51,974 nt of DNA from Streptomyces coryli (GTDB lineage: Bacteria; Actinomycetota; Actinomycetes; Streptomycetales; Streptomycetaceae), in NCBI RefSeq assembly GCF_011044975.1, contig NZ_JAAKZV010000027.1:1-51974 (forward strand), in the 5' to 3' direction. The stretch's first letter is position 1. Every line of letters starts with the position of its first letter. The position numbers and the translations under genes are program-made. The notes beneath the pieces are model-generated. The model saw only the letters and a program-made list of their open reading frames with translations, did no database searches and was not told the origin of the DNA. Below are positions 22,455 to 37,487 of this stretch, piece by piece.

Positions 22455-22946
22455 GTGGAGTTCGACGTCACCATCGAGATCCCGAAGGGTTCGCGGAACA
22501 AGTACGAGGTGGATCACGAGACCGGTCGGATCCGCCTGGACCGTCGACTCTTCACATCAACCAGCTACCCGGCAGACTACGGCTTCATCGAGGACACGCT
22601 CGGCGAGGACGGCGACCCGCTGGACGCGCTGGTCCTTCTGGACGAGCCGACCTTCCCCGGATGCCTCATCAAGTGCCGGGCGATCGGCATGTTCCGGATG
22701 ACCGATGAGGCGGGCGGCGACGACAAGGTGCTGTGCGTGCCGGCGTCCGACCCCCGGGTCGAGCACCTCCGCGACATCCACCATGTGTCGGAGTTCGACC
22801 GCCTGGAGATCCAGCACTTCTTCGAGGTCTACAAGGACCTGGAGCCCGGCAAGTCCGTAGAGGGCGCCAACTGGGTCGGCCGCGTCGACGCCGAACTCGA
22901 GGTCGAGGCCTCGTACAAGCGACTCCAGGCGTCGGGCGGTCACTGA
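22455..22946 (+). CDS. ppa: Inorganic pyrophosphatase, 3' end supplied by the element
   Basis: This 163-residue soluble family I pyrophosphatase starts at GTG 22455, with GGAGGAG 7 bases upstream. It has the metal-binding motif [20 protein letters not shown] with D-x-D-P-x-D, and the YKD motif near the C-terminus. It hydrolyses PPi to two phosphates. The last 41 codons (from 22821) match a second copy at 37346-37474. After the shared 38 bp all changes are synonymous (GTA, GAA, CGA, CTC, GCG, TCG for GTC, GAG, CGC, CTG, GCC, TCC) plus loss of one Gly codon. Thus the protein is a chromosomal body with an element-borne tail, and should be functional. Confidence 0.95.
22821..22858. repeat. attL core
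   Basis: This 38-bp segment inside ppa, from the Phe codon of FEVYKDL to the Val codon of GKSV, is identical to 37346-37383. Sequence to the left is chromosomal ppa; sequence to the right is the element's replacement tail. The crossover lies within these bases. Confidence 0.9.
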
Positions 22947-22949
22947 CCC

Positions 22950-22963
22950 TGACCTGCGGTTTT
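22950..22963 (+). repeat. TGACCTGCGGTTTT repeat, copy 1
   Basis: This copy lies just after the ppa stop. Identical bases occur at 24770-24783 and a near-identical inverted copy at 24863-24876 beside the candidate origin. Possible site for Xis, Int or a replication protein. Confidence 0.45.
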
Positions 22964-22990
22964 ACCTCCATTTCGGGGTGACACGCTGAA

Positions 22991-23041
22991 GGCATGGGCC
23001 TGCCGCCGTACCCGATCACGGGACGGCGGCAGGCCCATGCC
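22991..23041. terminator. Strong bidirectional terminator between ppa and int
   Basis: A perfect 19-bp stem (22991-23009 with 23023-23041) encloses a 13-base loop. It sits between the converging ppa and int genes and can stop transcripts from both sides, which would shield the chromosome and the element from each other. Confidence 0.8.
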
Positions 23042-23062
23042 TGTCGTGGCCGCGTAGGCCGA

Positions 23063-24319
23063 TCAGGCGGCTTGGGCCGTCTCTGGGCCGTCAGAGCCGT
23101 ACAGAGTGCGATCCACGGCCTTGCGGACGCGGCCTTCGCTGCTCGGCATCAGGTGCGCGTACACCCGCAGGGTGAGCGCCGGATCGTGGTGTCCGAGGTA
23201 CTGGCTGAGCGCCTTAACGTTCTCGCCCGCGTCCAGCAGAACCGAGGCGTACATGTGGCGCAGCGCATGCATCCCGTGCTCGCGCGCCGCGGCGTATCGC
23301 CCATCCTTGACCTCGTCCGGGATGACGTCGGCCTTGGCTAGGGCCCGCTTCCACACGTCCTTGTTGAAGACGTTGCGGTGCACGACCAGGGCCTTGCCGT
23401 CCCGGAGGAACAGCAGCTCCCGGGTCACTGGCGGTCCGTCCGGGGTCTGCCACGGCAGGGTGACCGGCTGAGGAGGGAACTGCGCCATGTGCGCGGCCAG
23501 CCGTTCCGCGACTGCCGGCGCCAGGGGTACATCGCGCTCTTTGCCGCCCTTGGGCAGGCCGAACATCAGGTGTCGCCCGACCTGCTTCACCGAGCACGTC
23601 ACGTGCAGCCATCCGGCCTCGGGGTCGATGCTGTCGACCGCCAGGGCGAACACCTCCCCCTGCCGCAGGCCACAGCCCCCAGCCGCGTCGACCATGGCCC
23701 GGTACCGCTCGGGCAGCGCCTCGCGTACGGCACGGGCCGTCTCCGGCAGCCACGGGCGCACCCGAGTGCTGATCGCCTTCGGCGGGCGCACGCTGCGGGC
23801 GCGGCACGGGTTCGCCTTCAGGTAGCCGTCGTCCACGGCGGCGCTGAGCACCGTCGAAGTGATCCGGAAGATGGCCGACCGATACGAGGCGGACACCACG
23901 TTCTGTTCCAGCTCGGAGAGCCATGTACGAATGTGCTCCGGGCGGAATGAGGTGAGCGGCCTCGATCCCAGGTAGGGCACCGCGTGCCGCCGCACACAGG
24001 TGGCTGCGGACGAACGAGTCGTCACCTCGCCACCCTGTGATTCGAGCCACTGTTCCGCGTACTGCCCGAACGTGACCCGACTGGCCGATGGGGCGATGTA
24101 CGTGCCGTCGGCCATGTCGGCCTCGATCTTGTTGAGCCACTTTTCTGCCAGCCGCTTTTGCCCATCGGCAAAGCTCTTGGACTGCTCGGTGCCGTCCGGT
24201 CCGATGTAGCGGGCGCGGTAGCGGTTGCCCTTCCCATACCGGTCGGTCTTGGTCTTGCGGGGCTTGCCGTCAGCGTCGGTGACGGTCTTGTACCAGCGGT
24301 CTTGGACGTGCCCAGCCAT
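23063..24319 (-). CDS. int: Tyrosine site-specific integrase
   Basis: This 418-residue tyrosine recombinase starts at ATG 24319 (MAGHVQDRWYK). It has an N-terminal arm-binding domain, a SAM-like core-binding domain (about residues 70-160), and a catalytic domain with Arg in GGCGLRQGE, H-x-L-R in HALRH, His in LGHHDPAL and the nucleophile Tyr in RVYAHL. It should recombine attP with the ppa attB to insert the element, and with Xis to excise it. It ends 204 bases from the attL core. A 20-bp repeat within its own 3' coding end matches one near attR. Confidence 0.93.
   Translation of the reverse strand: MAGHVQDRWYKTVTDADGKPRKTKTDRYGKGNRYRARYIGPDGTEQSKSFADGQKRLAEKWLNKIEADMADGTYIAPSASRVTFGQYAEQWLESQGGEVTTRSSAATCVRRHAVPYLGSRPLTSFRPEHIRTWLSELEQNVVSASYRSAIFRITSTVLSAAVDDGYLKANPCRARSVRPPKAISTRVRPWLPETARAVREALPERYRAMVDAAGGCGLRQGEVFALAVDSIDPEAGWLHVTCSVKQVGRHLMFGLPKGGKERDVPLAPAVAERLAAHMAQFPPQPVTLPWQTPDGPPVTRELLFLRDGKALVVHRNVFNKDVWKRALAKADVIPDEVKDGRYAAAREHGMHALRHMYASVLLDAGENVKALSQYLGHHDPALTLRVYAHLMPSSEGRVRKAVDRTLYGSDGPETAQAA
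23074..23093. repeat. Candidate integrase arm site, left
   Basis: GGGCCGTCTCTGGGCCGTCA lies in the last codons of int and is repeated exactly at 37221-37240 near the other end. It is itself two GGGCCGTC units separated by TCT. Both copies are in the same orientation. Confidence 0.6.
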
Positions 24320-24432
24320 GGGTCTGAAGCCTTTCGCGCAGGGGCGGGGCAGAGGCGTTGGGTTCGCCCCGCCACAGGGAATCGGTCGAGGTTCATGAGC
24401 GGGGGTGAGGCATCGCCCCACCCCCGCTTTGG

Positions 24433-24675
24433 TCAGGCCGCTTCGTCCAGGTCGCGCCCCTCTTGCTCGCGCGCCCATGCCCGCACGGCAGCGGGGTCGT
24501 AGCGGAGGTGCTTACCCACCCGGAATCCGGGCGGGCCGATGCGCCGCTTGCGCCAGTAGTAGACGGTCTCTACGGGGACGACGAAGGTGACGGAGATGTC
24601 CTCCGGCGTCAGGTAGCGGTCCGGCAGTCCGGCCCGCAGTGTGTTCACGGCCTCGGGGATCGGGGCGGCGGTCAT
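24433..24675 (-). CDS. xis: Excisionase, MerR/AlpA-like HTH
   Basis: This 80-residue protein starts at ATG 24675 behind CCAGGAGGACC. It has a winged HTH_17 fold: LTPEDISVTFVVPVETVYYWRK, then GPPGFRVGKHLRYDPAAVRAW, typical of actinomycete Xis proteins. It should bend DNA near the attachment sites and direct Int towards excision. It lies 113 bases upstream of int on the same strand, the usual xis-int order. The leader contains the CTCTCGCCA motif seen before other genes of the element. Confidence 0.87.
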   Translation of the reverse strand: MTAAPIPEAVNTLRAGLPDRYLTPEDISVTFVVPVETVYYWRKRRIGPPGFRVGKHLRYDPAAVRAWAREQEGRDLDEAA

Positions 24676-24745
24676 TGGGTCCTCCTGGCGAGAGATTTGG
24701 TCAGCGAAGGCATGCGGGAGAGGTCGAGCCACATTCCTGTGGGAC

Positions 24746-24901
24746 GCGGCCCATCGCGGCCCAAGGCTGTGACCTGCGGTTTTTCGCCTGCTCTGTGCGG
24801 CCCATCGCGGCCCGCGCTGCCACGGGTCTTTGGGCCGCGGTGGGCCATACGAGATGCCAGGGAAAGCCGCAGGTCAGAATGGGTGGGCCGCGATGGGCCG
24901 C
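24746..24901. repeat. Origin-like repeat cluster between xis and replication genes
   Basis: The 17-mer GCGGCCCATCGCGGCCC occurs at 24746-24762 and 24797-24813 and, inverted, at 24885-24901; a related GGGCCGCGGTGGGCC is at 24832-24846. Two TGACCTGCGG-type repeats (24770-24784 and inverted 24863-24876) are interleaved. The layout of interleaved direct and inverted repeats beside the primase genes fits a replication origin or Xis-binding region. No coding sequence is seen in 24676-24909. Confidence 0.55.
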
Positions 24902-24909
24902 GCCCCTGG

Positions 24910-26307
24910 CTAATGTGGTTCGGACGGGTTGAGCGTGATCCCGGTGTAGATGGGCATCCGTCGGCCGTAGTCGTCGCGCGGCTTGGCCCGGTGCAGTTGG
25001 GGCACGACGGACAGCAGGTTGCGGCCGAACATTTGCTTGGTGCCGGTGCCGCGTACGCCGTTGTCCTCGGCCCAGTCGCGCCAGGCGTCCCACAGCGCGT
25101 CGACGGGCACCGTGCAGGCGGGCCCGACGGTGCAGCGTTCGCGGACGAAGGCGCTGGTGGGTGAGGCGGTGTCCTGCATGGTGGTGACCGCTTCGCGGCT
25201 GGAGGCAGGTTCCGTGATCCGGCCCTTGGCCTCCAGCCGGGTCAGCCCGTCCAGCGCCCAGTTGAGGATGCCGGGCATCTCGGAGCACAGCCGCGCGAAC
25301 AGCGTCGGGTCTTCCTTGCCGAGCCACGACACCGTCATGTTCAGCAGTACGAAGCGGCGCGCGATGACGCCGGAGGCGTCGCCGAAGTGCGGCAGCTCGT
25401 TGGACAGGATCACCAGCCGGGTGGGCAGCTTGCCGGTCCACACCTCCCGGTACTTCCGGTCGATGTCGATGGTGTCCTCACCAGAAATCGTCAGCAGCCG
25501 CTCCACTACTTGGCTGTTGTCGTTGCCCGACAGCCGCGCGTCGGCAATGACCGCGAGCGGCTTGCCGATCAGGGTGGACAGCCCGAAGTTCGTCCCCAGC
25601 CCGGCCAGGGTCGGTCCGGCCAGGTTCTCCTTGCCGACCAGCTCCTTCAGCACCCGGGCGATGGTGCCCTTGCCCGAGCGGGACGGGCCGACCATGAGCA
25701 GGATCTTCTGCTGGTCGGTGCGCCCGGACAGCACGTAGCCGAACCACTCCTGCAGCGCCGCGATGGCGTCCGGGTCGTCCGGCCAGATCTGCCGCAGGAA
25801 GCCATCCCAGGTCGGGGCGGTGGCCTGCGGGTCGTAGGCGAACGGCACGGAGACGAGGTTGAAGAACTCCGGGCTGTGCACCAGCAGCCGCCGATCCCGG
25901 ATGCGCAGCAGCCCGTTCTGACAGGCCACGATCGGACTGCCGTCCTGCGCGGCCGACTGCCGGCCGATCCAGGCCGGGGCATCGGTGTCGGTGGGCAGCA
26001 GCGTCACCGCCCCGAGTGCATCCAGCAGATTGCCGAGCTTCTGCTTCGTCGGGGCCCAGTCGCGGAATTCGGGCTGCCCGTCCTTGTCGGTCCCGGCCCG
26101 GTAGGTGACGTACTCCAGGCGCGCGTACAGGGCGGCGCGCAACTGCGGTTCGTCCAGCTCCCGCCAGCAGGTGCCAGACCAGCGCATCCACGAGCCGCGC
26201 CAGCGGCGGCAGACCAGGTGCCCGCCGTCGTTCTGCCAGTCGGGCAGCAGCCGCCGCGCGACCGCGAGGGGGTTGGAGGGTGCGGGGAGTTCTTCGGTGC
26301 CGGTCAT
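24910..26307 (-). CDS. P4-type primase/SF3 helicase
   Basis: This 465-residue protein starts at ATG 26307 behind GGAGGG. It contains a D5/P4 N-terminal region and an SF3 helicase core with Walker A GPSRSGKGT, Walker B-like LAVIADARL, and motif C LVILSNELP, as in phage/plasmid P4 primases. The C-terminal part is a helical DNA-binding region. With the Prim-Pol made from the same operon it forms a replication initiator resembling RepPP AICEs. The start overlaps the preceding zinc-binding gene by four bases. Confidence 0.88.
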   Translation of the reverse strand: MTGTEELPAPSNPLAVARRLLPDWQNDGGHLVCRRWRGSWMRWSGTCWRELDEPQLRAALYARLEYVTYRAGTDKDGQPEFRDWAPTKQKLGNLLDALGAVTLLPTDTDAPAWIGRQSAAQDGSPIVACQNGLLRIRDRRLLVHSPEFFNLVSVPFAYDPQATAPTWDGFLRQIWPDDPDAIAALQEWFGYVLSGRTDQQKILLMVGPSRSGKGTIARVLKELVGKENLAGPTLAGLGTNFGLSTLIGKPLAVIADARLSGNDNSQVVERLLTISGEDTIDIDRKYREVWTGKLPTRLVILSNELPHFGDASGVIARRFVLLNMTVSWLGKEDPTLFARLCSEMPGILNWALDGLTRLEAKGRITEPASSREAVTTMQDTASPTSAFVRERCTVGPACTVPVDALWDAWRDWAEDNGVRGTGTKQMFGRNLLSVVPQLHRAKPRDDYGRRMPIYTGITLNPSEPH

Positions 26308-26657
26308 GCGGCCCTCCTCTCGTGTGGATGGCGCAGCGGGCAGCTCCCCCGGTGCTCCTCGTGGTCTGCGATCAGGTGCAGCACCCGCCTGCGGCCTGCC
26401 GCCCGGCGCTCGCGCCCGCATAGGCAGTGCGATGACGCGGTGGGTGTGGCGCCCTTCGGGGCGCGGATGGTCAGCCAGGCGATCGGCTCGCGTCCGTCGC
26501 CCGGTCGCTGCGCGACCGGAGGAGGGGCTGAGAGGACGGCCTGACGGCCGCCGCCTTTTCGGGCGCCTGCGTCAGCGGTCACCACCGTGTTGCGCGCGGC
26601 TGCGGTGTCGTCGGGGGTGGCGTTGGGGCTCTTAGTGGGGGGAGGTTCGTGGTTCAT
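26304..26657 (-). CDS. Small Cys/His protein in the replication operon
   Basis: This 117-residue protein has a disordered, Pro/Thr/Gly-rich N-terminus and a C-terminal cluster (CLCGRE, then HLIADHEEH, then SCPLRH) with Cys and His spacing that would suit one zinc ion. The gene overlaps both neighbours by four bases (ATGA at 26654-26657 and 26304-26307), so it is translated in step with Prim-Pol and the P4 primase. No family is recognised. A role as a replication accessory is inferred from position only. Confidence 0.65.
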   Translation of the reverse strand: MNHEPPPTKSPNATPDDTAAARNTVVTADAGARKGGGRQAVLSAPPPVAQRPGDGREPIAWLTIRAPKGATPTASSHCLCGRERRAAGRRRVLHLIADHEEHRGSCPLRHPHERRAA

Positions 26658-27565
26658 GCCGTCTGCCGCCCCCGCGGGTTGTGCGCGATGGACCAGTCCA
26701 GGCCGCGAGCAATCACGTCGTCGTAGTAGCGCTGCGGCTGAGTCGCGTTGGCAGCCGCCGCCCCACTAAGAGCCTGCTCAGCCTCGGCGCGGCTCAGGTC
26801 GCCAGCGGCGATGAACCGCCCCAGGGCCCGCGCGGCCCGCAGCAGCGTCGCGTTCCGGGCGCCATCGGGCGCGGTGGCCACGTTGTGCACCTCACTGCGC
26901 AGGGCAGCGAGAACGTACCGAGGCGCGTTGCCCGGCTGGGGCATGGCCACGACTCCCGTGGGGCGCGGCGCAGGTGCCAGGGCGGCCCGGAGCCACGCGG
27001 GCAGCGGAACGGGCGGGGTGAGGTCGGTGACCTCGTAGGCGCGGCCGTCGACCACGCTGCCGGGGGCGACGACGTAGCCGCCCCAAGCGCGGGTGTCGAT
27101 GCGCGCGGCGAGCTTGCCCGCCGTGTTCCCCAGCCGCAGGCCGGGCGGGGTGGTGAAGTACCGGTGCTGGCCCCCGCTCGCGGTCCGCAGCGTGAAGGTA
27201 GCCGGGGCAGGCTGGCCGGTGCGCTCGCAGAGCGCCGCAAAGGACGTCGCGCCGCTAGGCGCGTCCTTCTCGTCCTTCCTGTTCTTGGGAAGGTCCAGGT
27301 CGATGACGACCAGCCCGGCCGGGCCGGTGGCGATACCGACGTTGAACGCCTCGGACTGCCACGTGCGGCGGATCAGCTCGGGGTCTGTGGTGGCGCGCTG
27401 CTCCCACGTGGCGTGAACGGCCGTGCAGGGGCCGGTGCGCGGGCACCTGTCCTTGCCGTGCAGCGCGGGCCGCTTGGTGCCGGGGCGGAGGGGGAAGACG
27501 GGCCAGCCGCGTCGCGCTGCGTCAAGCGCAGCGGCGAGCTGGGCGGAGACGGGTGGATGCGTCAT
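26654..27565 (-). CDS. Bifunctional DNA primase/polymerase (Prim-Pol)
   Basis: This 303-residue protein starts at ATG 27565 behind AGGAGA. The archaeo-eukaryotic primase fold is shown by VVIDLDLP (catalytic D-x-D), GGQHRYFTTP (the sGxH motif) and GGYVVAPGS, and the N-terminal GWPVFPL is typical of plasmid/phage Prim-Pol proteins. It can prime and extend DNA at the element's origin. It begins the replication operon. The leader has the 21-base motif shared with the gene at 33141-33425. Confidence 0.9.
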   Translation of the reverse strand: MTHPPVSAQLAAALDAARRGWPVFPLRPGTKRPALHGKDRCPRTGPCTAVHATWEQRATTDPELIRRTWQSEAFNVGIATGPAGLVVIDLDLPKNRKDEKDAPSGATSFAALCERTGQPAPATFTLRTASGGQHRYFTTPPGLRLGNTAGKLAARIDTRAWGGYVVAPGSVVDGRAYEVTDLTPPVPLPAWLRAALAPAPRPTGVVAMPQPGNAPRYVLAALRSEVHNVATAPDGARNATLLRAARALGRFIAAGDLSRAEAEQALSGAAAANATQPQRYYDDVIARGLDWSIAHNPRGRQTA

Positions 27566-27613
27566 GCTGGTGTTCTCCTGTTCTGTGGTTGGAGCAGAGG
27601 GAGAGAGGGCGGG

Positions 27614-27634
27614 CGCGGTCTTTGGCGAGAGAGC
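27614..27634 (-). promoter_or_regulatory. Shared leader motif, copy 1
   Basis: On the minus strand GCTCTCTCGCCAAAGACCGCG lies about 50 bases before the Prim-Pol start; here given as GCTCTCTCGCC then AAAGACCGCG. The same bases with one change occur before the gene at 33425. Both are followed by CTCCAACC and then the ribosome site. Confidence 0.5.
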
Positions 27635-27667
27635 GCCCGTCCTCACCTGCAAAAGGGTCCGGACAAT

Positions 27668-27688
27668 CCCCGGTTTCGGTAACCGGGG
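27668..27688. other. Perfect 8-bp hairpin upstream of Prim-Pol
   Basis: CCCCGGTT and AACCGGGG flank a 5-base centre about 105 bases upstream of the Prim-Pol start. It could be an operator or an RNA stem in the leader. Confidence 0.4.
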
Positions 27689-27736
27689 ATCTGCTGCTAT
27701 AAGGGCTCGCGTTGCGTGATCCCGGCTGTTCGACGG

Positions 27737-27818: not shown

Positions 27819-27851
27819 CGCTTTCGCCCCGGGGGTGGCGGAAGCGGTTCA

Positions 27852-28816: not shown

Positions 28817-29287
28817 TCAGCCGCGGAAGTGGTTGTTCTTGAAGACCGCCTTGCGGGCGTTAACCGTGACGCCGCCCCGACCGCCGCCGCTGCCGAAGAG
28901 CTGCACGGCGACGTACAGGCCGAAGACGATCGCCACCAGGATGATGAGCTGGTGGAGCAGCGCGGCGAGCGCGGCAATGAACGAGGTGAGCAGGATCAGC
29001 CCGCCGCAGATGGCGGCGAACCCGATCCCGCCCAGCGCGATGTTCACCGCCGTACGCGACACCACCGGCCGGGACTGCACCACGGCCGGGGCCGCGGACG
29101 CGGCCGGGGCGATGGCGTAGCCGGTGACGACGCGGCCGTCCGGCAGCACGACGCTCTGCACGGCCGGCACTTGGCCGGGCGCCACCGGAACAAGCGGCGC
29201 CGCCGTGTCGGCGGGCGGTATCGGGGTCGGGTGGTGGACGGTCACGGGCCGTTCCACGGACCCGTGTTCGTACCGTTCGGGGTACAT
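28817..29287 (-). CDS. DUF6251-like spread-type membrane protein
   Basis: This 156-residue protein starts at ATG 29287 (MYPERYEHG) behind GAAGGGAT. After a Pro/Ala-rich segment, two hydrophobic helices follow (INIALGGIGFAAICGGLILL, with INIALG read as VNIALG, and LIILVAIVFGLYVAVQLF), then a basic end (NARKAVFKNNHFRG). This pattern matches small AICE membrane proteins (DUF6251, SpdB-like) that act with TraB in spreading DNA within mycelium. It is the next gene after traB on the transcript, across a repeat-rich 200-base gap. Confidence 0.7.
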   Translation of the reverse strand: MYPERYEHGSVERPVTVHHPTPIPPADTAAPLVPVAPGQVPAVQSVVLPDGRVVTGYAIAPAASAAPAVVQSRPVVSRTAVNIALGGIGFAAICGGLILLTSFIAALAALLHQLIILVAIVFGLYVAVQLFGSGGGRGGVTVNARKAVFKNNHFRG

Positions 29288-29324
29288 GCGAGATCCCTTC
29301 TCACGATTACAGAGCGTGCAGGGA

Positions 29325-29454
29325 GGGAGGCAGAGCACGCCCCGGAGAGACAGCGTTTCCGGGGGTTTTGCAGGCCAGCGGCGGGCCGCCTCCCTGCCTC
29401 CCTAACGGGGTGTCACCGCAGGTAGGGCGAGGGAGGCAGGGCGAGGGAGGCAGG
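29325..29454. repeat. Candidate clt/TraB recognition repeats
   Basis: GGGAGGCAG occurs at 29325-29333, 29431-29439 and 29445-29453, and inverted at 29394-29402. The last two direct copies are part of a 14-bp tandem repeat (29427-29440 and 29441-29454). They lie just past the traB stop, which is where clt loci with short TraB-binding repeats are found in Streptomyces plasmids. The gap 29288-29488 holds no gene. Confidence 0.55.
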
Positions 29455-29488: not shown

Positions 29489-31588
29489 TCACTCAGCGTC
29501 ACTGAGCGAGGTGTCGTCGTCCCGGGCGCGAAGCGCGGCGCGGACGCGGTCGCGGCTGACGACCATGACGCCGCCGGACTTGTACGGGGCCGCGCCGACT
29601 TCCTGCAGAACCCGGGTCAGCTCCGAGGCGGTCCAGCTGCGGTATTCGGCCGGGTTGCGCTCGGCGAGCAGCTGCCGCACCACGTCGGTACGCGGCCGCT
29701 CCACGTCGCCCACCACGGCGACGATGTCGGCGAGGTGGTCCACCGGCTCATCCACAGGCTGTGCGGGAGCCGGAGTGATGCCCTCACGCAGGCCCATGGC
29801 CCGCTCAACGACGGGCGTGATCTGGTCGCGTTCGGCGTCCTTGCGGACGTAGTGCGCGCGGACCAGCTCGAAGTTGTTGCGGGTGAACCCGACCGTCAGG
29901 CAGGTGCCGATGTCCTCGGCCGGATTCAGGTTGGTGGCGGTGATGCCGGCACGATGCTTGCCGGTGCCCAGCAGCCCATCGTTGGCGATGTGGTCACCAA
30001 CGGCGAACGCCACCCGGTGCGAGGTGTTGCGGGTGACCTCCTTCGGGATGCTGTCCGCCGTAGGCGACACGGTGACCCAGATCAGGGTGATGCCGACCTT
30101 GCGGGCCTTCTTCATCACCTGCTCCGCCAGTTCGGCCGCCTCGGCGCCGTACTTCTTGTGCATGAACAGCTCGTGGCACTCATCGAAGACAACGACCTTG
30201 GGCCGCATCCGCGGGTCCCGCTCAGCAAGCTCACGAGTCAGCCGGACCTCGTCACCGCCGAACGCTTCGAGAAGCTTGCCGCGCTCAGTGACCTCACCGC
30301 GCAGATTGCGCAGGGCCTTGACCGCGGCCTCGATCTGCTCGTCATCATCGCCCTTGACCAGGGTGTTCAACCGGCGCTTCATCGGGTCGTAGTCGACGTT
30401 GAAGGCCATCACGTACACGTCGATCTCGACCAGCGGATCGAGCATCGCACCCAGCAGCAGCGAGACGACCAGCGACGACTTACCCGAGCCCATGATGCCG
30501 CCGACCATGTAGTTCGAGGCCATCAGCTTGCCGTGCACGGTGTCACCGCGCTGCGAGACGCCGACCGGCACGCCCTTGAAGTAGTCGGTGGTGCCCTCGG
30601 TCAGCAGCGGCCAGTCCGGCACCTTCCCGGACAGCGAGCCCTGGTCAGCCACCCACAGATCGAGAATCCCGGGCTGGTCGCGGGGTTCGGTCGGCCATAC
30701 CTCGATCGGCAGGCGCAGCAGGTTGTGCGCGAGCACCGGCTTCTTGCCGTTGATCATCTCGACCGTGACGCCCATCGGCAGCTGCAGCCGGGAGTGGTAG
30801 CCGTTGCCCAACCTGACGGTGCCCTGCGACCAGCGCGGCTGCCAGCCGTCCTTGAACGCCTGGTTCAGCTTCGGGATCGACAGGTGCTTGAGGCTGTGAA
30901 GGATCGCCCCCTCATCAGGCACCACGTCCCGCTTCTCCTCGACCGGCAGCGCCCATCGAGGGGCCGCCTGCCGCTGCCGACCGACATTCCAGATCGACCC
31001 GATCGCGAGGAACGGCAGCGCGATCAGCAGCGGATTCCAGATGAAGCCGACTATGAACGCGATCCAGCCGATGAGCTGGATCACGGTCGCAATCGGGGCG
31101 AGGACCAGGCCAACGTCCTTGCTGGCCACGGCCAGGATGATGCCAAGCACCAGCAGCGCCCCGGCCGCAGCAGCGGTCCCGTAGGCGATGGCCTTCGGTG
31201 CATACAGCATGGCCTTGAGCAGGTCCATGCGCCGCTTGTGCCGCGCCTTGCGGAACGCGGCGGCGCGCTTCTCCCACTCCTTGATTTCCTCGTAGTTCCC
31301 GGCCGCTTCCGCGCCCCGGATCATCCGGGCATAGCGGGCGGTGGTGCGGTCATCCCACGCACGACGGGTCAGAATCCGCACGCCACCGAGCAGGTACGCG
31401 CTGTGGCGGACCGTCGGCCGCACGATGGTGCCCACCCGCTTGTGGGTGGCAGCCGCACGAAGGAACCGGCCGGCACTCGACCACCAGCGGGTCGGTACGT
31501 GGTCCGGCACCAGGGCGAGGTCGACCGGCGGCGGCACGTCGGCCACATCGGGCGGGGCTTTGAAGAGGGGAACGACGTTATCGGGCAT
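29489..31588 (-). CDS. traB: TraB/TraSA-type FtsK DNA translocase
   Basis: This 699-residue protein starts at ATG 31588 behind AAGGAG. Residues about 125-200 hold membrane helices (AAAGALLVLGIILAVAS, IGWIAFIVGFIWNPLLIALPFLAIG). The motor has Walker A GGIMGSGKSSL and Walker B KVVVFDECHEL. The C-terminal winged helix would bind clt repeats. Streptomyces TraB proteins form a hexameric pore and move double-stranded DNA between mycelia without a relaxase. It is the main transfer gene of the element. The leader holds CTCTCGCGACAAGGAG, a variant of the shared leader motif. Confidence 0.93.
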   Translation of the reverse strand: MPDNVVPLFKAPPDVADVPPPVDLALVPDHVPTRWWSSAGRFLRAAATHKRVGTIVRPTVRHSAYLLGGVRILTRRAWDDRTTARYARMIRGAEAAGNYEEIKEWEKRAAAFRKARHKRRMDLLKAMLYAPKAIAYGTAAAAGALLVLGIILAVASKDVGLVLAPIATVIQLIGWIAFIVGFIWNPLLIALPFLAIGSIWNVGRQRQAAPRWALPVEEKRDVVPDEGAILHSLKHLSIPKLNQAFKDGWQPRWSQGTVRLGNGYHSRLQLPMGVTVEMINGKKPVLAHNLLRLPIEVWPTEPRDQPGILDLWVADQGSLSGKVPDWPLLTEGTTDYFKGVPVGVSQRGDTVHGKLMASNYMVGGIMGSGKSSLVVSLLLGAMLDPLVEIDVYVMAFNVDYDPMKRRLNTLVKGDDDEQIEAAVKALRNLRGEVTERGKLLEAFGGDEVRLTRELAERDPRMRPKVVVFDECHELFMHKKYGAEAAELAEQVMKKARKVGITLIWVTVSPTADSIPKEVTRNTSHRVAFAVGDHIANDGLLGTGKHRAGITATNLNPAEDIGTCLTVGFTRNNFELVRAHYVRKDAERDQITPVVERAMGLREGITPAPAQPVDEPVDHLADIVAVVGDVERPRTDVVRQLLAERNPAEYRSWTASELTRVLQEVGAAPYKSGGVMVVSRDRVRAALRARDDDTSLSDAE

Positions 31589-31690
31589 GGTGGAGACTCC
31601 TTGTCGCGAGAGATGGCGCGAGGACGGGTCCGGCCGCGTGCTGTAGGAGGTGGGCGGCCGGGCCCGGTTGATGGATTGTTCGTGCAGCAG

Positions 31691-32068
31691 TCACGCGGCA
31701 CGGTCGGCAGAGGCACACAGCAGGCACATGCCGAGCGAGCGCGGCAGGCAGTAGCTGTAGGTGATCCGGCACTTGGGGCAGGTACGGCGGGCGAGCATGG
31801 CTAGGGCCAGCGCGCCCCACTTCCGCGAGGTCATCGGCCGCACGGGCCGGGCCAGGTCTTCGCGGTAGAGGTAGGCCACGCTCACCCCGCCTGCGCGCCG
31901 GTTTTGCCGCATGAGCTGCGCGGCGATGTCCTGCCCGCCCGGCCGCAGTCCGCGGGCCCGTAGCTGCCGGCGCGTGGCCAGCCCGTCCGGGGCGTACTTC
32001 CACGGGTAGGTGGGCACGCCGTAGCGGGCACCGTGCGGGTCGTAGCACTTGCCGAACGCCGCCGACAT
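31691..32068 (-). CDS. RRQRL-type zinc-binding AICE protein
   Basis: This 125-residue protein matches a small family found in Streptomyces AICEs: MSAAFGKCYDPHGARYGVPTYPWKYAPDGL is close to the family N-terminus (given in part), followed by LATRRQLRARGLRPGGQ, which contains the characteristic RRQ-L motif. The C-terminus has CPKC and CLLC pairs that should hold one zinc. Its role is not established; it always appears close to traB. It overlaps the DUF2637 gene stop by three bases, so it is coupled to it. Confidence 0.8.
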   Translation of the reverse strand: MSAAFGKCYDPHGARYGVPTYPWKYAPDGLATRRQLRARGLRPGGQDIAAQLMRQNRRAGGVSVAYLYREDLARPVRPMTSRKWGALALAMLARRTCPKCRITYSYCLPRSLGMCLLCASADRAA

Positions 32069-33144
32069 CAGGCAGCCCGCTCAGCGCGCAGAGCGTCCCG
32101 CAGCATCCGGGCATTGGCCGGGGAGGTGTGCACCGCCCGGCGGATGCCCTCCGCCGTGATCTTGGCGTCGGGCCAACCGGCGGTCACCGTACGGGCCTCG
32201 GCAAGCAGCTGCTCCGGTGTGCGCTTGGTCCGCGGAGTACGTGCAGCGTCGGGCACCCGACCGGTGGCACGCCGCGGACGGCGCACATCGGCCGCCACGG
32301 TCCGCGGCCCGATCGGCGGGGCGATCGAGGGCAGCGGCTTGAGCGTAGGAGTCGACTTCAGGCAGTCGACCGCAGCCGGGGCGGGCAGCCGTTCCACCGT
32401 CGCCGTGATCGGAGCAGGGTCCGATTCAGGCAGCTCGCCGGTAGACCGTTCCGGGTCGGTCTTAGCCGGTGTCCCGGTGTCCGCGGTGGTGATGGCGAAC
32501 ATGCCAGCCAGGGCCGCGTCCGCGCCCGTGACGACGCGTTCGCGCTGCACCGTCAACAGCCGCTCACCCAGCACCACATCGCCGCCGCCGACCTGGCGGG
32601 CCAGCCGCCACGACTTGCGCTCGGAGCGCCCCCGAACCTTGTCTACGGGGTGGTTGGCCGCGCGGGCCTGGTGGTAGGCCAGGGCCCGCACGATCGTGGC
32701 GGCCTTGCGCTCGGCTTCCGCGTCCCGGCCGGCGGTGTGCACCACGATCCGGCGGGCCAGGAAGGCCATGCCTTCCGCCGATACGCACATGCCCATCGGG
32801 GTCACGGCGTAGATGACGGTGCGGCCCGCATCCGGGCCCGCCATCGCAGCCATCACCGCGGCCGCGGTCGGCAGCGCCCACAGACCGGCCCTGATCGGCC
32901 ACGGCGAGGACTGTCCGAGCATGGTCAGTCCGAGCAGCACCAGCGCGAGTACAGCGGTGGCGCCCTCACCGGCGGCAACCGCACCCAGCGCGGTCCCGGT
33001 GCCGTAGGCGTGGGAGATGTTGCTGAACGTGCCCACAGCCCCGGTGATGCCGGTGGCCAGCATGGGCAGGAAGGCGATGGTCAGTACGGCCTTTTGCGGG
33101 CCGGTCAGGCGGCGCGCGACGCTCGCACGGTCGTCGGTAGTCAT
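32068..33144 (-). CDS. DUF2637 membrane protein (SpdB-like)
   Basis: This 358-residue protein starts at ATG 33144 (MTTDDRAS). Its N-terminal 150 residues have four membrane helices (AVLTIAFLPMLATGITGAVG, AVLALVLLGLTMLG, AGLWALPTAAAVMAAMAG, and a fourth), as in DUF2637 proteins. The remaining part is cytoplasmic, Pro/Thr-rich, and ends in a helical DNA-binding-like region (ITAEGIRRAVHTSPANARMLRDAL, given in part) resembling a winged helix. Such proteins are encoded next to TraB and are thought to assist spread between hyphal compartments. It overlaps the genes on either side. Confidence 0.82.
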   Translation of the reverse strand: MTTDDRASVARRLTGPQKAVLTIAFLPMLATGITGAVGTFSNISHAYGTGTALGAVAAGEGATAVLALVLLGLTMLGQSSPWPIRAGLWALPTAAAVMAAMAGPDAGRTVIYAVTPMGMCVSAEGMAFLARRIVVHTAGRDAEAERKAATIVRALAYHQARAANHPVDKVRGRSERKSWRLARQVGGGDVVLGERLLTVQRERVVTGADAALAGMFAITTADTGTPAKTDPERSTGELPESDPAPITATVERLPAPAAVDCLKSTPTLKPLPSIAPPIGPRTVAADVRRPRRATGRVPDAARTPRTKRTPEQLLAEARTVTAGWPDAKITAEGIRRAVHTSPANARMLRDALRAERAA

Positions 33145-33425
33145 GCCGCTGCCCCCTTCCGGGAGCGCGGGCGCCGCCGGTCCGGACGCGGCAGAGTGAT
33201 GATCTCCGCAAGATCCGGATTGTCGATCACGTCGGCGATCCGGTCCGCGCGCCACGGCAGAGCGGGGTTGTCAGTGAGGATGTCGCGGCCCGCGTCCAGG
33301 CGGGCCGCTCGTTCCTCGGCCGTCTCTCCCTCGGCACCGAGCCACAGCTCAAGCGGGGTACCGAGCGCCAGCTCTGCGAAGTCTTCATCGGTCACGGCCT
33401 GGTGGCCGCTGACGTACGAACGCAT
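33141..33425 (-). CDS. 94-residue AICE hypothetical protein
   Basis: This protein starts at ATG 33425 behind CAGGAGA. It is acidic in the first two thirds and ends in an Arg-rich basic tail (RPDRRRPRSRKGAAA). There is no known domain. The ATGA overlap at 33141-33144 couples it to DUF2637. Its leader has the same motif and following CTCCAACC as the Prim-Pol leader. Its place at the start of the coupled transfer genes suggests a transfer-related role, but this is inference. Confidence 0.7.
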   Translation of the reverse strand: MRSYVSGHQAVTDEDFAELALGTPLELWLGAEGETAEERAARLDAGRDILTDNPALPWRADRIADVIDNPDLAEIITLPRPDRRRPRSRKGAAA

Positions 33426-33479
33426 GATCTGTCTCCTGTAGTTGGCTGGGTTGGAGCAGGTGGAACCGGGACGGCCGCG

Positions 33480-33500
33480 GTCATTGGCGAGAGAGCGGCC
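33480..33500 (-). promoter_or_regulatory. Shared leader motif, copy 2
   Basis: On the minus strand GCTCTCTCGCC followed by AATGACCGCG lies about 55 bases before ATG 33425. It matches copy 1 at 27614-27634 at 20 of 21 bases. A partial version (CTCTCGCCA, then GACCGCGG) occurs around 34741-34764. Confidence 0.5.
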
Positions 33501-33509
33501 GTCTCGGGG

Positions 33510-33896
33510 TCAGCGGTGAACGACGGGCTTGGCCAGGTCGAGGTCATTGACGGTGACCTCGAAGCCCAGCGCGCGCAGCTGCGCGGCCAGCGCCATAGCG
33601 AACGTCGGGGCGCGGTGCCGGCCGCCCGCGCAGCCGACGGCCACGCGGACCTTCTGCGCGCTCGGACCGAGGGCGAACGCCGCAACGGCCATCGCGGTGG
33701 AGTCGACCAGTGCGCCGATGCCGGGCGTGTTCAGCACCGTGGTGCGAACCTCCGCGTCGTGCGCCGTCAGGTACTTCATGGCCGGACTGACGTGCGGGTC
33801 ACGGAAGTGATGCCGCAGGTCGATGGTCAGGTGCGCGGCCGGCGGCGCGGCGTGCAGATAGCCGAACGACGTGATCTCAACGCACGGGAAAGCCAT
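33510..33896 (-). CDS. RapZ C-terminal-like domain protein
   Basis: This 128-residue protein is a free-standing version of the RapZ C-terminal domain: VAVGCAGGRHRAP corresponds to the IAIGCTGGKHRSV motif of RapZ, and the flanking strands (SFGY near the start, DLRHHFRDP, VEVTVNDL-like end) also agree. The RapZ domain binds amino-sugar phosphate or RNA in other bacteria. The N-terminal kinase-like part is absent. It is common as an extra gene in Streptomyces AICEs; its job there is unknown. It is 14 bases after the DUF4097 gene. Confidence 0.8.
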   Translation of the reverse strand: MAFPCVEITSFGYLHAAPPAAHLTIDLRHHFRDPHVSPAMKYLTAHDAEVRTTVLNTPGIGALVDSTAMAVAAFALGPSAQKVRVAVGCAGGRHRAPTFAMALAAQLRALGFEVTVNDLDLAKPVVHR

Positions 33897-33910
33897 GGCG
33901 GAACCTGCTC

Positions 33911-34684
33911 TCAGTGAGTGCGGACGTGGCCGCTGACGGAGTGGGTGTTCACCCGCAAGTGCCGGGTGCCGTCCGCGTGGATGTCGCCGGAAACGGTGCT
34001 GGCGCTGAACAGCCCGGACGATGCCGGGGTGGCCTGCGCGATGATGTCGCCGGAGGTGCTGTCCAGCTCTGCGTGGCTGCCGTCGTAGAGGCGGATGCTG
34101 ATGTCACCGGAGACGGTGCGCGCGGCCAGACGCTCGGTGACGCGCCCGGCATGGATGTCGCCGGAGGTGCTGGAGGCGATCAGCTGACGGGCGCCGTCAA
34201 GGTGCAGGTCGCCGGAGACGGAGCGGAACTCCACCCGCTCCAGGTAGCCGAAGACCTCCACGGTGGAGGAGGTGGACACCGCAGCCAGCGAGCTGCCCGC
34301 GGGCAAGTACACGCTGGCTTCGATGGCGCTCACCGTCGGCACGGAGCTGCCGCCCACGACGCGGCCGTTGACCATGGTCATACCGCCGGAGATGACGACG
34401 CCGGACACGACGTTGCCGGAACCCCGCACGAAGATGCCGCCCGTGCTCTGCCCGCTCACGTCGCCCGACATCTCGGGAACCTCGATCGCCAGGGCCTGCC
34501 CGTCCTGACGGCTACGAGCCTGGGCAACGGCGTCGGCGGCCGGGCCGCTGGCGTCCTTCGTGCGGAGCACCACACGGGCACTGGTGAGGCTGTCGAGCAC
34601 CTGGACACGGACGCTGCCAACCGGCAGGTCCAGCCCCAGCACGACCGGGCCGGCGGAAGCAGAGGTGAAGGTGCGCTCAGTCAT
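33911..34684 (-). CDS. DUF4097 beta-strand repeat protein
   Basis: This 257-residue protein starts at ATG 34684 behind AAGGAGA. After an N-terminal strand-rich part it has repeating units of the type SGD-I-A/H followed by a strand (FRSVSGDLHLDGA, ASSTSGDIHAGR, ARTVSGDISIRL, LDSTSGDIIAQA, ASTVSGDIHADG), which build a right-handed beta helix. There is no signal peptide, so it is likely cytoplasmic or membrane-associated by partners. It is the first gene of the long minus-strand transfer operon. The function in AICEs is unknown. Confidence 0.85.
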   Translation of the reverse strand: MTERTFTSASAGPVVLGLDLPVGSVRVQVLDSLTSARVVLRTKDASGPAADAVAQARSRQDGQALAIEVPEMSGDVSGQSTGGIFVRGSGNVVSGVVISGGMTMVNGRVVGGSSVPTVSAIEASVYLPAGSSLAAVSTSSTVEVFGYLERVEFRSVSGDLHLDGARQLIASSTSGDIHAGRVTERLAARTVSGDISIRLYDGSHAELDSTSGDIIAQATPASSGLFSASTVSGDIHADGTRHLRVNTHSVSGHVRTH

Positions 34685-35111
34685 AGCGATCTCCTTGACT
34701 TGCTGCGGAATGGGAAGAGGCGGGCGAAGCACCGGGCCGCCGCGGTCGAAGCAGTGGCGAGAGGCAGCGGCCCGGGCAAGTGCGGAGCAGAGCAGGAATC
34801 GTCCGGCTCCCCTCAGCCCCGCCCGTACGAGACGGACGGAGGAGGCAACCGGCCGCCGCGAGATCGCGGCGGAACAGTGAGGTCGTGCAGGTGTCTCCTT
34901 CAGGCGGCAGCTCAGGTAGAGCCGCCATGCCTGGCGAAGGCGTATGGAGACATGACCTTTCGGTCTCAGCCCTCCGGTTAATGACCAGGCGCCGGGCCGC
35001 CTCGGCCCGCTCTGTCCCGGGCCCCTTACCGCCGTTGAGCAGCCCAAAGAAGGGCCTCAATGGCCGGTCGTCAGTGGCACAGTGGATACTTGATCCTGTT
35101 GCACCACTCGT

Positions 35112-35133
35112 TCAACTTATTGGAACAAGTTGA
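35112..35133. promoter_or_regulatory. GntR operator 1
   Basis: TCAACTT and AAGTTGA form a perfect 7-bp inverted repeat with 8 central bases. The right half with flanks, AACAAGTTGA, repeats at 35193-35202. Confidence 0.6.
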
Positions 35134-35190
35134 TGCTGTGATGGTGCACCGACGGAGAGTGAAGCGTCAAGGGGTTGAGGCAAACATGTA

Positions 35191-35204
35191 CCAACAAGTT
35201 GACC
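35191..35204. promoter_or_regulatory. GntR operator 2
   Basis: CCAACAAGTTGACC lies about 20 bases before ATG 35225 and shares AACAAGTTGA with operator 1, 69 bases away. It includes the TTGACC that could serve as a minus-35 box. Confidence 0.55.
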
Positions 35205-35224
35205 GAGTGCGTCATGATGGGCGC

Positions 35225-35998
35225 ATGAGCAAGCAACCGAAGTACCGGCTGGTGGCCGACGCGCTACGCCGCGAGATCGAAGACGGCAGCCTGCCCCCCG
35301 GGGCGCGTGTGCCGTCAGAGAACAAGCTGATGGAGCGCTTCGAGGTCTCGCGGAACACTGCCCGCTCGGGCCTACACCTGCTGGTCTCGGAAGGGCTGAT
35401 TTCATCAAGCCAGGGACTCGGCTATGAGGTGCACGCCAACGAGATCTTCGAGCTGAACGCGTCCCGGTTCGAGAACCTGGAGTTTCCGCAGGACGGTGAC
35501 GCCTACAGCACGGACGTGAAGAGTGCCGGCCGTCGGCCGCACCAGACGTTCCGCGTTGAGGTGCAACCGGCGTCGAAGGACGTCGCCAAGCGCCTTGAGG
35601 TAGAGCCTGGCGCTACGGCGGTGCTGCGGTTCTGCCACCGGTTCGTGGATGACGTCCCGTGGTCCACCCAGGCCACCTACTACCCCGAATGGCTGGTCTC
35701 CGCTGCACCACGTCTCGCTGAGCCGGGGGACATCGAGGAAGGCACCACGAGGTACCTCGCTGCGCGCGGGACCGTGCAGGACAGGTACTTCGATGAGATC
35801 GCAACGCGCATGCCGACTCCGGACGAAGCGCGTCTACTGGAGGTCGGGGCGGGTGTCCCGGTGCTCCTCTGGACACGAACTGGGTACTCGGGCGAGCGCC
35901 CGGTTCGGTGCACCGTCACCACGCTCCGCGGCGACCTGAACCGCATGAACTACGAGATTGACAATCTCTCGGGGCGAAGCGAGAACGAACCTAAGTGA
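35225..35998 (+). CDS. GntR/HutC-type regulator of the element (KorSA-like)
   Basis: This 257-residue protein starts at ATG 35225 (MSKQPKYRLVADAL). It has an N-terminal GntR winged helix (PSENKLMERFEVSRNTARSGL) and a UTRA effector domain (residues about 90-245, with TFRVEVQPASKDVAKRL and PVLLWTRTGYS). AICE regulators such as KorSA of pSAM2 are of this kind and hold transfer and replication genes off. Matching inverted repeats just upstream point to self-regulation. The stop overlaps the GNAT start (GTGA). Confidence 0.87.
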   Translation: MSKQPKYRLVADALRREIEDGSLPPGARVPSENKLMERFEVSRNTARSGLHLLVSEGLISSSQGLGYEVHANEIFELNASRFENLEFPQDGDAYSTDVKSAGRRPHQTFRVEVQPASKDVAKRLEVEPGATAVLRFCHRFVDDVPWSTQATYYPEWLVSAAPRLAEPGDIEEGTTRYLAARGTVQDRYFDEIATRMPTPDEARLLEVGAGVPVLLWTRTGYSGERPVRCTVTTLRGDLNRMNYEIDNLSGRSENEPK

Positions 35999-36555
35999 AG
36001 ATCGTCCCTGCCCAACCGAACGACGTAGCCAAGCTGCTGGCCTTCCGTGAGGAGGCCGCAGCTTGGCTGTCGCGCCTCGGTTCTGATCAGTGGCAGCGTC
36101 CGTATCCCGCAGACAAGCTGTTGGCCACCATCGAGGCCGGCACCGTCTTCATGGTCCGAGACCGCGATGCGACTGCCGCAACCATCACCCTCACGCCAGA
36201 GGCGGAGGCTGGGCTGTGGACAGCCGATGAGCTCCGAGAGCCTTCGCTCTTCATCAATAAGCTCACCGTCGCCCGGACCCACGCTGGCCAAGACCTCGGC
36301 GGCCGCCTACTCGACTGGGCGGGAGACCGCGCCTACAGAGCGGGTGCCAAATGGCTCCGGCTTGACGCCTGGACCAGCAATACAGCCCTCCAGAGGTATT
36401 ACCTCCAGCACGGCTTTCAGTACGTACGAACGGTGCTCGAAGGCACTGCCGTGAACGGCGGACCACGCGTCTCAGGATGGCTCGCGCAGCGTCCAGCACG
36501 CCCGTGCGCGCATGGCTTCACCGACGAGACGCCACCGCCTGCTCAACCCAGGTAA
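35995..36555 (+). CDS. GNAT acetyltransferase paired with the GntR regulator
   Basis: This 186-residue protein starts at GTG 35995 within a GTGA overlap, so it is coupled to the GntR gene. It has the GNAT fold: FINKLTVARTHAGQDLGGRLLDW is the acetyl-CoA strand and loop (with a variant Q/R-x-x-G-x-G/A), and LRLDAWTSNTALQRYYLQHGF completes it (parts shown). The substrate is unknown. Its tight link with the regulator suggests it may modify the regulator or its ligand, or be a passenger. Confidence 0.82.
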   Translation: MKIVPAQPNDVAKLLAFREEAAAWLSRLGSDQWQRPYPADKLLATIEAGTVFMVRDRDATAATITLTPEAEAGLWTADELREPSLFINKLTVARTHAGQDLGGRLLDWAGDRAYRAGAKWLRLDAWTSNTALQRYYLQHGFQYVRTVLEGTAVNGGPRVSGWLAQRPARPCAHGFTDETPPPAQPR

Positions 36556-36788
36556 CTCAGCTGGAGAACCGTCAGCGTCTTTGTGACATCGCCGACTAGG
36601 AGCACGGCAATCACGTGCTCCGTGATCAGCATCCGCACCACTCCGTCGTCTTCGCCGTACGGTTCCGTGGCGCCGATCGGGTCGTCACAGGCTGCGGCAA
36701 GGGCTAAGGACAGTTGCTCGCTCGCCTCGGACGGCAGAGCGTCGTGTACCGCTTCGGCGGCACGGTCGTACTTGAGCCGGTAGGTCAT
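36543..36788 (-). CDS. RelE/ParE-like toxin candidate
   Basis: This 81-residue protein resembles RelE/ParE toxins: MTYRLKYDRAAEAVHDALP at the start, two helices, then strand pattern VVRMLITEHVIAVLLV and a terminal LTVLQLSYLG. The classical basic catalytic residues are few, so activity is uncertain. It begins one base within the stop of the upstream partner (TGATG at 36786-36790), as toxins do behind antitoxins. It converges with the GNAT gene with a 13-base overlap. Confidence 0.6.
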   Translation of the reverse strand: MTYRLKYDRAAEAVHDALPSEASEQLSLALAAACDDPIGATEPYGEDDGVVRMLITEHVIAVLLVGDVTKTLTVLQLSYLG

Positions 36789-37072
36789 CAGGCAGCGCCT
36801 CGGCTGCGCGCCGCAGCAGCCTCAGCCTGAATCCGCTCGGTCACGTCGACCCATTCGCCCGGTACTTCCCCTGTGGCAGCTTCAACCTCGGCAAGGCTCC
36901 GTCCGCGCTCCCCCGCCGCCGACATGCCGGCAGCGATGCCCTGCCACTTCGCGAACACCGTCAGCAGCTCGTGGGCAGGCGCGCGGTTGATCTCGCCCAA
37001 GAACTTCTTGCTGAGCATGGGGTTCCCCAGCGCCTCACAGATGGATTCAATGGTCCATGTACGGTCGCTCAC
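36788..37072 (-). CDS. Antitoxin-like partner protein
   Basis: This 94-residue protein starts at GTG 37072 behind GGGAGG. The N-terminal WTIESICEALGNPMLSKKFLGEINRAP is helical and could bind DNA or the partner; the C-terminal part (VTERIQAEAAAARSRGAA) is a charged, probably flexible tail as in many antitoxins. No family assignment is certain. Position directly before the RelE-like gene, overlapping it, and at the end of a mobile element supports a toxin-antitoxin addiction pair. Confidence 0.55.
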   Translation of the reverse strand: MSDRTWTIESICEALGNPMLSKKFLGEINRAPAHELLTVFAKWQGIAAGMSAAGERGRSLAEVEAATGEVPGEWVDVTERIQAEAAAARSRGAA

Positions 37073-37220
37073 GGTTCGCGCCTCCCGGCACTCGTTTACG
37101 CTCGGGTCCTACCGTACGCGCGGCTCTCGCTGTCCGTCAGTCGCTCCGGTAGCTGTCACTACAGCGCGTTCAGGGGTGGGCCGTCGGCCGCCCATTCACG
37201 CGGTCTCTGGGCCCCGACTC

Positions 37221-37240
37221 GGGCCGTCTCTGGGCCGTCA
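37221..37240. repeat. Candidate integrase arm site, right
   Basis: GGGCCGTCTCTGGGCCGTCA is an exact copy of 23074-23093. A half-site GGTCTCTGGGCC precedes it at 37202-37213. The non-coding stretch 37073-37345 between the antitoxin-like gene and attR otherwise holds no gene that I can see. Confidence 0.6.
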
Positions 37241-37345
37241 AGGCACCGCCACGGGTCGCCAACAACCACCATTGACCGCCCTATCGCCGCTCGCTTTCCC
37301 AGCGCGTATAACGCTGCGCCATGGCGCCCCGGGAGCCGGTACCAA

Positions 37346-37383
37346 TTCGAGGTCTACAAGGACCTGGAGCCCGGCAAGTCCGT
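37346..37383. repeat. attR core
   Basis: These 38 bp are identical to 22821-22858. To the left lies element DNA unrelated to ppa; to the right lies the original chromosomal ppa tail. Confidence 0.9.
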
Positions 37384-37474: not shown

Positions 37475-37487
37475 CCGACGGACCACC

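Follow-up and report, generated by a model that had tools for sequence, protein, structure and literature searches.

The DNA analysed here, referred to as the window, is the 51,974-nt stretch from position 1 to 51,974 (forward strand) of contig NZ_JAAKZV010000027.1 of Streptomyces coryli (GCF_011044975.1). It very probably contains a 14.5-kb element of the actinomycete integrative and conjugative element (AICE) type, whose chromosomal attachment site (attB) lies within the coding sequence of ppa, the inorganic pyrophosphatase gene, as proposed in the initial annotation, and which would have been inserted by the mechanism outlined below. The boundaries, the two ppa tails, the empty site in relatives, the arm-like sites at the ends and the gene content can be read from the sequence, and together they point to this conclusion.

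In the mechanism that we propose, the tyrosine integrase (Int) would recombine the attachment site of the element (attP) with attB at a core located within ppa codons 131–143, and would bridge this core and the arm-type sites that paired GACGGCCC would form at either end of the element. The attP would hold a full substitute for the last 41 codons of ppa plus the stop codon, so that ppa would be complete after integration, with the host tail moved to the far end. A helix-turn-helix (HTH) protein would act as the excision factor, a primase-polymerase (Prim-Pol) and a D5/P4 helicase would replicate the excised circle, and an FtsK-like protein would move the element as double-stranded DNA.

The probable attachment site in ppa and the empty site in relatives

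A direct-repeat scan of the window yielded a single long direct repeat, the two copies of which start 14,525 bp apart, and the reading of both ends confirmed that a perfect repeat of 38 bp inside ppa bounds the 14.5 kb, as initially annotated (Table 1). The edge of the repeat is sharp on the side away from the stop codons, where positions 22820 and 37345 differ. On the other side, the homology extends past the 38 bp to the stop codons (22821–22946, 126 nt; 37346–37475, 130 nt), the duplicated piece being the entire 3' end of ppa and not merely the 38-bp block. The left ppa is a complete open reading frame (ORF) with a Pyrophosphatase domain. Codon comparison of the two tails revealed six differences in the first 39 codons, each of them synonymous and at the third position; after these 39 codons, the displaced tail has one extra Gly codon, and it is 4 nt longer than the element-borne tail. 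The exclusively synonymous nature of the six differences indicates that the element brought a substitute, frame-keeping ppa tail. We therefore regard the element as the likely carrier of a working ppa end of different origin, placed on the host gene by integration. The tail adjoining int was taken as that of the element mainly on the basis of geometry. In ten ppa loci, taken from genomes that rank among the best matches to thrE, the score of the displaced tail always exceeded that of the element-borne tail (10/10), as expected if the displaced tail is native. The crossover presumably occurs within the 38-bp block.

The int-proximal core contains the inverted repeat AGGTC-N6-GACCT (22825–22840). 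An inverted repeat of this kind was considered as a general core and rejected, as 14 of 16 other loci lacked one (exact, arms of at least 5 bp, spacing of 5–8 bp). No tRNA or tmRNA was identified in the window, consistent with the initial annotation of both ends as free of tRNA genes, and no Rfam match reached the gathering threshold.

The ppa loci of relatives were then compared, as the initial annotation had advised. A match to the ppa tail was present in 389 of 392 Streptomyces genomes, and dacB, ppa and thrE were found together in all of the 30 best ppa loci. The gap between ppa and thrE was 90–612 bp in the 45 relatives' loci holding both genes (45/45), whereas in the window the 14.5-kb insert lies between them. 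A single ppa tail was present in every one of 48 ppa loci (two of which correspond to paralogous ppa genes), and none showed a duplicated tail without int, which the initial annotation had named as contrary to its proposal; these loci are mostly about 3.1 kb long, so a distant second tail would escape this count. Second tail matches in two genomes (loci L054 and L055) were considered as extra ppa-tail carriers and discarded, since they correspond to paralogous ppa genes. The best matches to the thrE region among the 392 genomes were 78–79% identical and included no near sibling of the host, which can thus be described as Streptomyces-like. The ppa tail had no match in phage records; it matched 11 records of the plasmid collection, and the two examined contained whole ppa genes. 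To the left of dacB (18179–20805), the window has NlpC/P60 and SpoIIE genes, and in a Tsukamurella record the neighbours of dacB are a metalloprotease gene, tilS and hpt; this difference possibly reflects a rearrangement in this host.

Related integrases, their targets and the end sites

An exact-peptide-pattern scan of a species-genome collection provided 47 int loci, with a best segment identity of 63–64%, and int matches at 1e-90 or better were present in 105 of 246 Streptomyces genomes, from which 100 regions were taken of about 135 Int places (mostly the best-scoring ones; several end at contig ends). The final set comprised 148 relatives, locus L047 being left out for lack of an Int match at 1e-40. 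Together with the window, the 149 loci hold 142 distinct int sequences, and some loci are from the same genome twice. Target labels were assigned from the gene or motif adjoining int, and gene names were checked with hidden Markov models (HMMs) on one representative each. By neighbour or motif, 115 of the 148 relatives were assigned to other protein-coding genes: gpmA (23), glnA2 (19; the label given here to a glutamine synthetase), the stretch upstream of ettA (13), the rlmN start (11), the dapD end (11), the end of the glycosyltransferase gene PMT (10), a CAP-domain protein (8), nusG (5), hisN (5), glnA (4), an unnamed family without Pfam match, popD (4), miaA (1) and murA (1). The other 33 had no target label. 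ARAGORN found tRNAs in seven of the first 47 loci, none of them within 1.3 kb of the int stop codon. Two target groups lie at gene starts and not at gene ends, in the rlmN start codon region and just upstream of ettA (L152, L146, L169 and L175). In many gpmA loci (L121, L133, L120, L127 and others), the gpmA end is about 650–850 bp from int rather than about 80 bp (about 990 bp in L119), which suggests an extra gene between int and the attachment site (att).

In a quick maximum-likelihood tree of 138 integrases, the target labels (15, with "other" counted as one) required 30 changes, versus a mean of 96.7 with shuffled labels. The most scattered labels were PMT (6 changes), rlmN (4) and CAP (4), partly because unlabelled rows lie among them. 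The integrase of the window stood by itself on a long branch (0.88) next to the groups of glnA2, ettA and PMT, in a position without starred support.

At the ends of the element, GACGGCCC occurs in close pairs (Table 1). GACGGCCCA is present five times in the window, four of them at the element ends, and the 52 kb contain exactly two copies of the tight pair GACGGCCC-N3-GACGGCC, one per element end (23075 and 37222). The distal GACGGCCC sites lie 106, 117 and 160 bp inside the distal att, near the distances found in the glnA2 group (104–116 bp). Among the relatives, GACGGCCC was located no more than 150 bp from the int stop codon in 105 of 148, where chance placement within these loci would give 11.1. 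Its position relative to the stop codon varies (e.g., -30/-19, -2/+9 and -53/-42), which speaks against plain codon conservation. A two-ended repeat with a score of at least 24 was obtained in 33 relatives only (the window is excluded from these counts). In 24 of them a GACGGCC site was found at the int end on the same strand, and in six of the remaining nine the att is 550–1,074 bp from int; GACGGCCC was located inside the distal att in 31 and just outside it in one. Overall, the element DNA of these 33 relatives (441 kb) contains 47 GACGGCCC pairs, of which 44 lie at the ends, versus a single pair in 217 kb outside. By their position, the end sites are candidate arm-type integrase sites, to which Int would bind. 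The tree and the motif counts place the window element in an Int clade whose members typically have GACGGCCC pairs near either end, and in the window these pairs lie at the distance usual for the clade.

A circular record of 18,451 bp (NZ_CP107792), whose integrase belongs to the PMT subclade, carries the PMT carboxy-terminal tail across its origin (82–84% identity), and has GACGGCCC at positions 168, 179 and 18299, with one elsewhere, at 8711. This layout corresponds to that predicted for an excised element of the Int clade.

A common core, TCGAG-N9-RAC, seen by eye in ppa, glnA2, gpmA, nusG, glnA and murA, was rejected, because anchoring on the distal arm pair puts the glnA2 core elsewhere in its repeat and the gpmA repeat is too short to hold the motif. 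This motif follows int in 22 of the 148 relatives (8/19 glnA2, 9/23 gpmA, 4/5 nusG and 1/33 unlabelled) and in none with any other label, glnA and murA included, as compared with 3.4% of random 310-bp windows; its excess is confined to three homologous gene ends.

Gene content and weighing of the alternatives

From the int end, the genes for the tyrosine integrase and the xis-like HTH_17 protein are followed by those for the P4/D5 primase-helicase and Prim-Pol, then by a small ORF and the gene for the FtsK/SpoIIIE-type translocase. Beyond these lie genes for a putative membrane protein, a protein with a RapZ C-terminal domain, a DUF4097 protein, a regulator of the GntR-UTRA type and a GNAT acetyltransferase, and finally two small ORFs (Table 1). 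The initial assignment of int, xis, Prim-Pol, P4 primase and TraB was borne out by HMM matches to each (Phage_integrase, HTH_17, Prim-Pol, D5/P4 and FtsK_SpoIIIE). The layout fits the AICE definition of Ghinet et al. 2011 (PMC3218068). Int scored 52.1 bits with PF00589 (cut-off 27.1), providing the integrase of this definition; Prim-Pol, with 162.1 bits for PF09250 and the D5/P4 helicase adjoining, corresponds to the replication protein, the translocase, with 31.4 bits for PF01580 (cut-off 24), to the FtsK/SpoIIIE transfer protein, and the direct repeats to the site-specific attL/attR boundaries. The element differs from AICEs with a tRNA attB in that its attB lies in ppa and not at a tRNA 3' end.

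Table 1. Coordinates (window numbering) and supporting evidence for the features of the ppa locus and the inserted element
Feature	Coordinates	Strand	Evidence
ppa, intact hybrid: chromosomal 5' part, last 126 nt presumably from the element	22431..22946	+	Pfam Pyrophosphatase 2e-56; codon comparison
int-proximal core of att; 38 bp, same sequence as in the distal copy	22821..22858	+	repeat scan, reading of ends
Remaining putative element-borne ppa tail (attP tail), with synonymous differences and one Gly codon fewer	22859..22946	+	codon comparison
int, tyrosine recombinase; ORF open from 24478, likely start 24319	23063..24319	-	Pfam Phage_integrase 9e-14; phrog_1 8e-57
Candidate int-end arm-type site: GACGGCCC pair 11 bp apart, within the last int codons	23068..23093	-	repeat scan, motif counts; binding predicted
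xis-like HTH_17 protein	24433..24675	-	Pfam HTH_17; phrog_66 excisionase; homologue in 116/124 relatives' loci
P4/D5-family primase-helicase, possible start 26307	24910..26421	-	TIGR01613 3e-53; DUF5906, D5_N
Bifunctional primase-polymerase (Prim-Pol)	26654..27565	-	Pfam Prim-Pol 2e-47
Small hypothetical protein, hydrophobic stretch	28817..29338	-	ORF, coding-like GC pattern; no Pfam match
TraB-like FtsK/SpoIIIE DNA translocase	29489..31588	-	Pfam FtsK_SpoIIIE 2e-7; pCM32 Zot-domain protein, 40.5% identity over 53% of query
Putative membrane protein, ORF open to 33255	32068..33144	-	phrog_16651 4e-40, function unknown; homologue in 25/124 relatives' loci
Stand-alone RapZ C-terminal domain protein, cargo	33510..33896	-	Pfam PapZ_C 8e-23
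DUF4097 protein, cargo; ORF open to 35047, start uncertain	33911..34684	-	Pfam DUF4097 8e-11
GntR-UTRA regulator; true start probably further in	35060..35998	+	Pfam GntR + UTRA
GNAT acetyltransferase, cargo	35995..36555	+	Pfam Acetyltransf_1
Small hypothetical ORF, 81 aa	36543..36788	-	ORF alone
Small hypothetical ORF, 94 aa	36788..37072	-	ORF alone
Candidate distal arm-type sites: GACGGCCC pair 37221-37240 and a further copy at 37177	37177..37240	-	motif counts
Distal att core, 38 bp	37346..37383	+	repeat scan, reading of ends
Displaced original host ppa 3' end, now without 5' part	37384..37475	+	reading of ends, codon comparison

The start of int may be Met 54 (24319), as the matches of many relatives, albeit not all, begin at residues 46–56; those of the remaining relatives begin at residues 12–34. 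Residues R272, K310, H404, R407 and H430 (open-ORF numbering), which we take to be catalytic together with Y440, were kept in all 138 aligned integrases, and Y440 in 137 of them. In 124 relatives, the locus extends 9 kb or more upstream of int; same-strand homologues of the xis-like, TraB-like and membrane proteins were encoded there in 116, 34 and 25 loci, respectively, and a homologue of the RapZ_C protein in none. Thus int and xis stay together, and the other modules vary. With a PMT-targeting relative (L138), the element shares 84% identity in the helicase and 57% in the integrase, so the modules appear to be exchangeable. The putative membrane protein is perhaps an accessory of spread or transfer.

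Several results weigh against an AICE-type element with its attB in ppa. When the comparison was widened to 38 ppa loci, the better score went to the displaced tail in 28 and to the element-borne tail in 9, with one tie, and the displaced tail is also the longer of the two by 4 nt. GACGGCCC was missing near the int stop codon in 43 of the 148 relatives. The fit of the transfer protein to FtsK models is modest, and Prim-Pol, D5 and TraB-like homologues were present in only 13, 4 and 34, respectively, of the 124 relatives' loci, so the clade is not demonstrated to consist of AICEs throughout. Finally, none of the 148 relatives has ppa in its locus (0/148), and a single ppa occupant is known. The initial annotation had called for a search for Int homologues and had regarded their integration elsewhere as contrary to its proposal; in a sense this is the case, but they are at most 64% identical to the window Int and their targets cluster by subclade, so ppa looks like a separate specificity, seen once so far.

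An element that integrated as described and subsequently decayed, being now unable to excise or transfer, is an unlikely alternative, although one that overlaps with the preferred interpretation, such that the two are not mutually exclusive. Published AICEs are often decayed (PMC9513070), and several ORFs of the element have no domain match. However, the int, xis-like, Prim-Pol, helicase and FtsK-like ORFs are open, the conserved integrase positions are kept, the cores are identical over 38 bp and there is a GACGGCCC pair at each end. Less probable still is a phage satellite or integrative plasmid of the P4 type (int, xis, Prim-Pol and P4 helicase) rather than a conjugative element. The Prim-Pol and the helicase do match phage primase families, and the FtsK-like protein weakly matches the terminase family phrog_2666, but the best matches of this translocase are FtsK/SpoIIIE models, FtsK chains and actinomycete plasmid proteins, among them that of pCM32, which has the same gene order, and no capsid or portal family was found among the matches of the scanned ORFs (PHROGs covered ten). 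The third alternative, that ordinary homologous events duplicated the ppa end and that mobile genes adjoin it by coincidence, is close to refuted: a gene-end duplication alone is no proof of site-specific recombination, but the copies are 14.5 kb apart with int adjoining the intact gene, clade-typical sites lie at the usual distance inside both ends, and relatives have neither the second tail nor the insert. An AICE-type element with its attB in ppa thus remains the best explanation.

Other features of the element were also recorded. PADLOC gave no match among the ten element ORFs scanned. Type IV secretion system and relaxase families were absent from the matches of the scanned ORFs in the general family scan, which included no search aimed at either. 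The RapZ_C protein also belongs to the phage family phrog_18111. A 55-nt direct repeat (82% identical) may be a shared operator or leader, since one copy (27587–27641) immediately precedes the start of Prim-Pol and the other (33449–33503) that of a 94-aa ORF (33141–33425). A 14-bp tandem repeat of 2.5 copies (29420–29454) adjoins the FtsK-like gene and is a possible candidate for a clt-type transfer site.

Relation to known elements and significance

The initial annotation regarded a target other than a tRNA gene as exceptional, a view that the literature does not sustain. Choufa et al. 2022 (PMC9513070) described 51 AICE-type elements of one Streptomyces population, with int, rep and traB and bounded by direct repeats, of which 14 were located in protein-coding genes; integrases of the pSLS subfamily are a stated exception to tRNA targeting (PMC3218068). 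The targets named in PMC9513070 include rlmN and a phospholipid carrier-dependent glycosyltransferase, and both rlmN and the PMT glycosyltransferase are also targets in the Int clade described here. By contrast, the statement in the initial annotation that no ppa-targeting AICE is known to have been described agrees with our search of the main texts of the open-licence literature, in which no paper with ppa or inorganic pyrophosphatase as a target was found; "pyrophosph" does not occur in the main text of PMC9513070, nor "pyrophosphatase" in that of PMC3218068.

The Prim-Pol AICEs of PMC3218068 share with the present element the Prim-Pol and a neighbouring replication gene, an FtsK-domain transfer protein and a tyrosine integrase, and one AICE of that study has a Poxvirus_D5 protein. 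The module order is also shared with a plasmid of Saccharopolyspora endophytica, pCM32 (NZ_KM260754), in which DUF4097, a Zot/FtsK-like protein, Prim-Pol, a hypothetical protein, an HTH protein and int follow one another; the FtsK-like protein of pCM32 is the Zot-domain match of the window translocase (Table 1). Outside the actinomycetes, streptococcal integrative and conjugative elements are commonly found in the 3' or 5' ends of housekeeping genes, with the same target used by related integrases (Ambroset et al. 2016, PMC4701971); PAISt is located at the bacA 3' end (PMC4057263). These likewise combine a tyrosine integrase, insertion at a conserved gene end and direct repeats, but they are other elements in other hosts, with other targets (rplL, rpsI, guaA, rpmG, lysS and bacA).

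Thus, ppa is apparently an undescribed target gene, and both the substitution of the gene tail and the presence of AICEs in protein-coding genes were already known. Of more interest than the ppa target itself is a clade with mostly constant end sites and many targets. It seems rather probable that a single clade of actinomycete tyrosine integrases has kept Xis and the paired GACGGCCC while its core specificity shifted from one conserved gene to another, some twelve in all (two glutamine synthetases, gpmA, nusG, hisN, dapD, murA, miaA, PMT, the rlmN start, the ettA leader and ppa), the attP holding a piece of the target such that the gene stays intact. The tree qualifies the remark, made for one element set in PMC9513070, that integrase sequence and site are uncorrelated, since within this clade targets are clustered. 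With about 140 related integrases, mostly constant end sites and many mappable cores, the change of target could be tested by comparison and domain swaps and, if the retargeting series is true, the integrase residues setting the choice of core could be read off. The ppa attB would also add an integration site for Streptomyces vectors, in which a presumably essential gene would be left intact.

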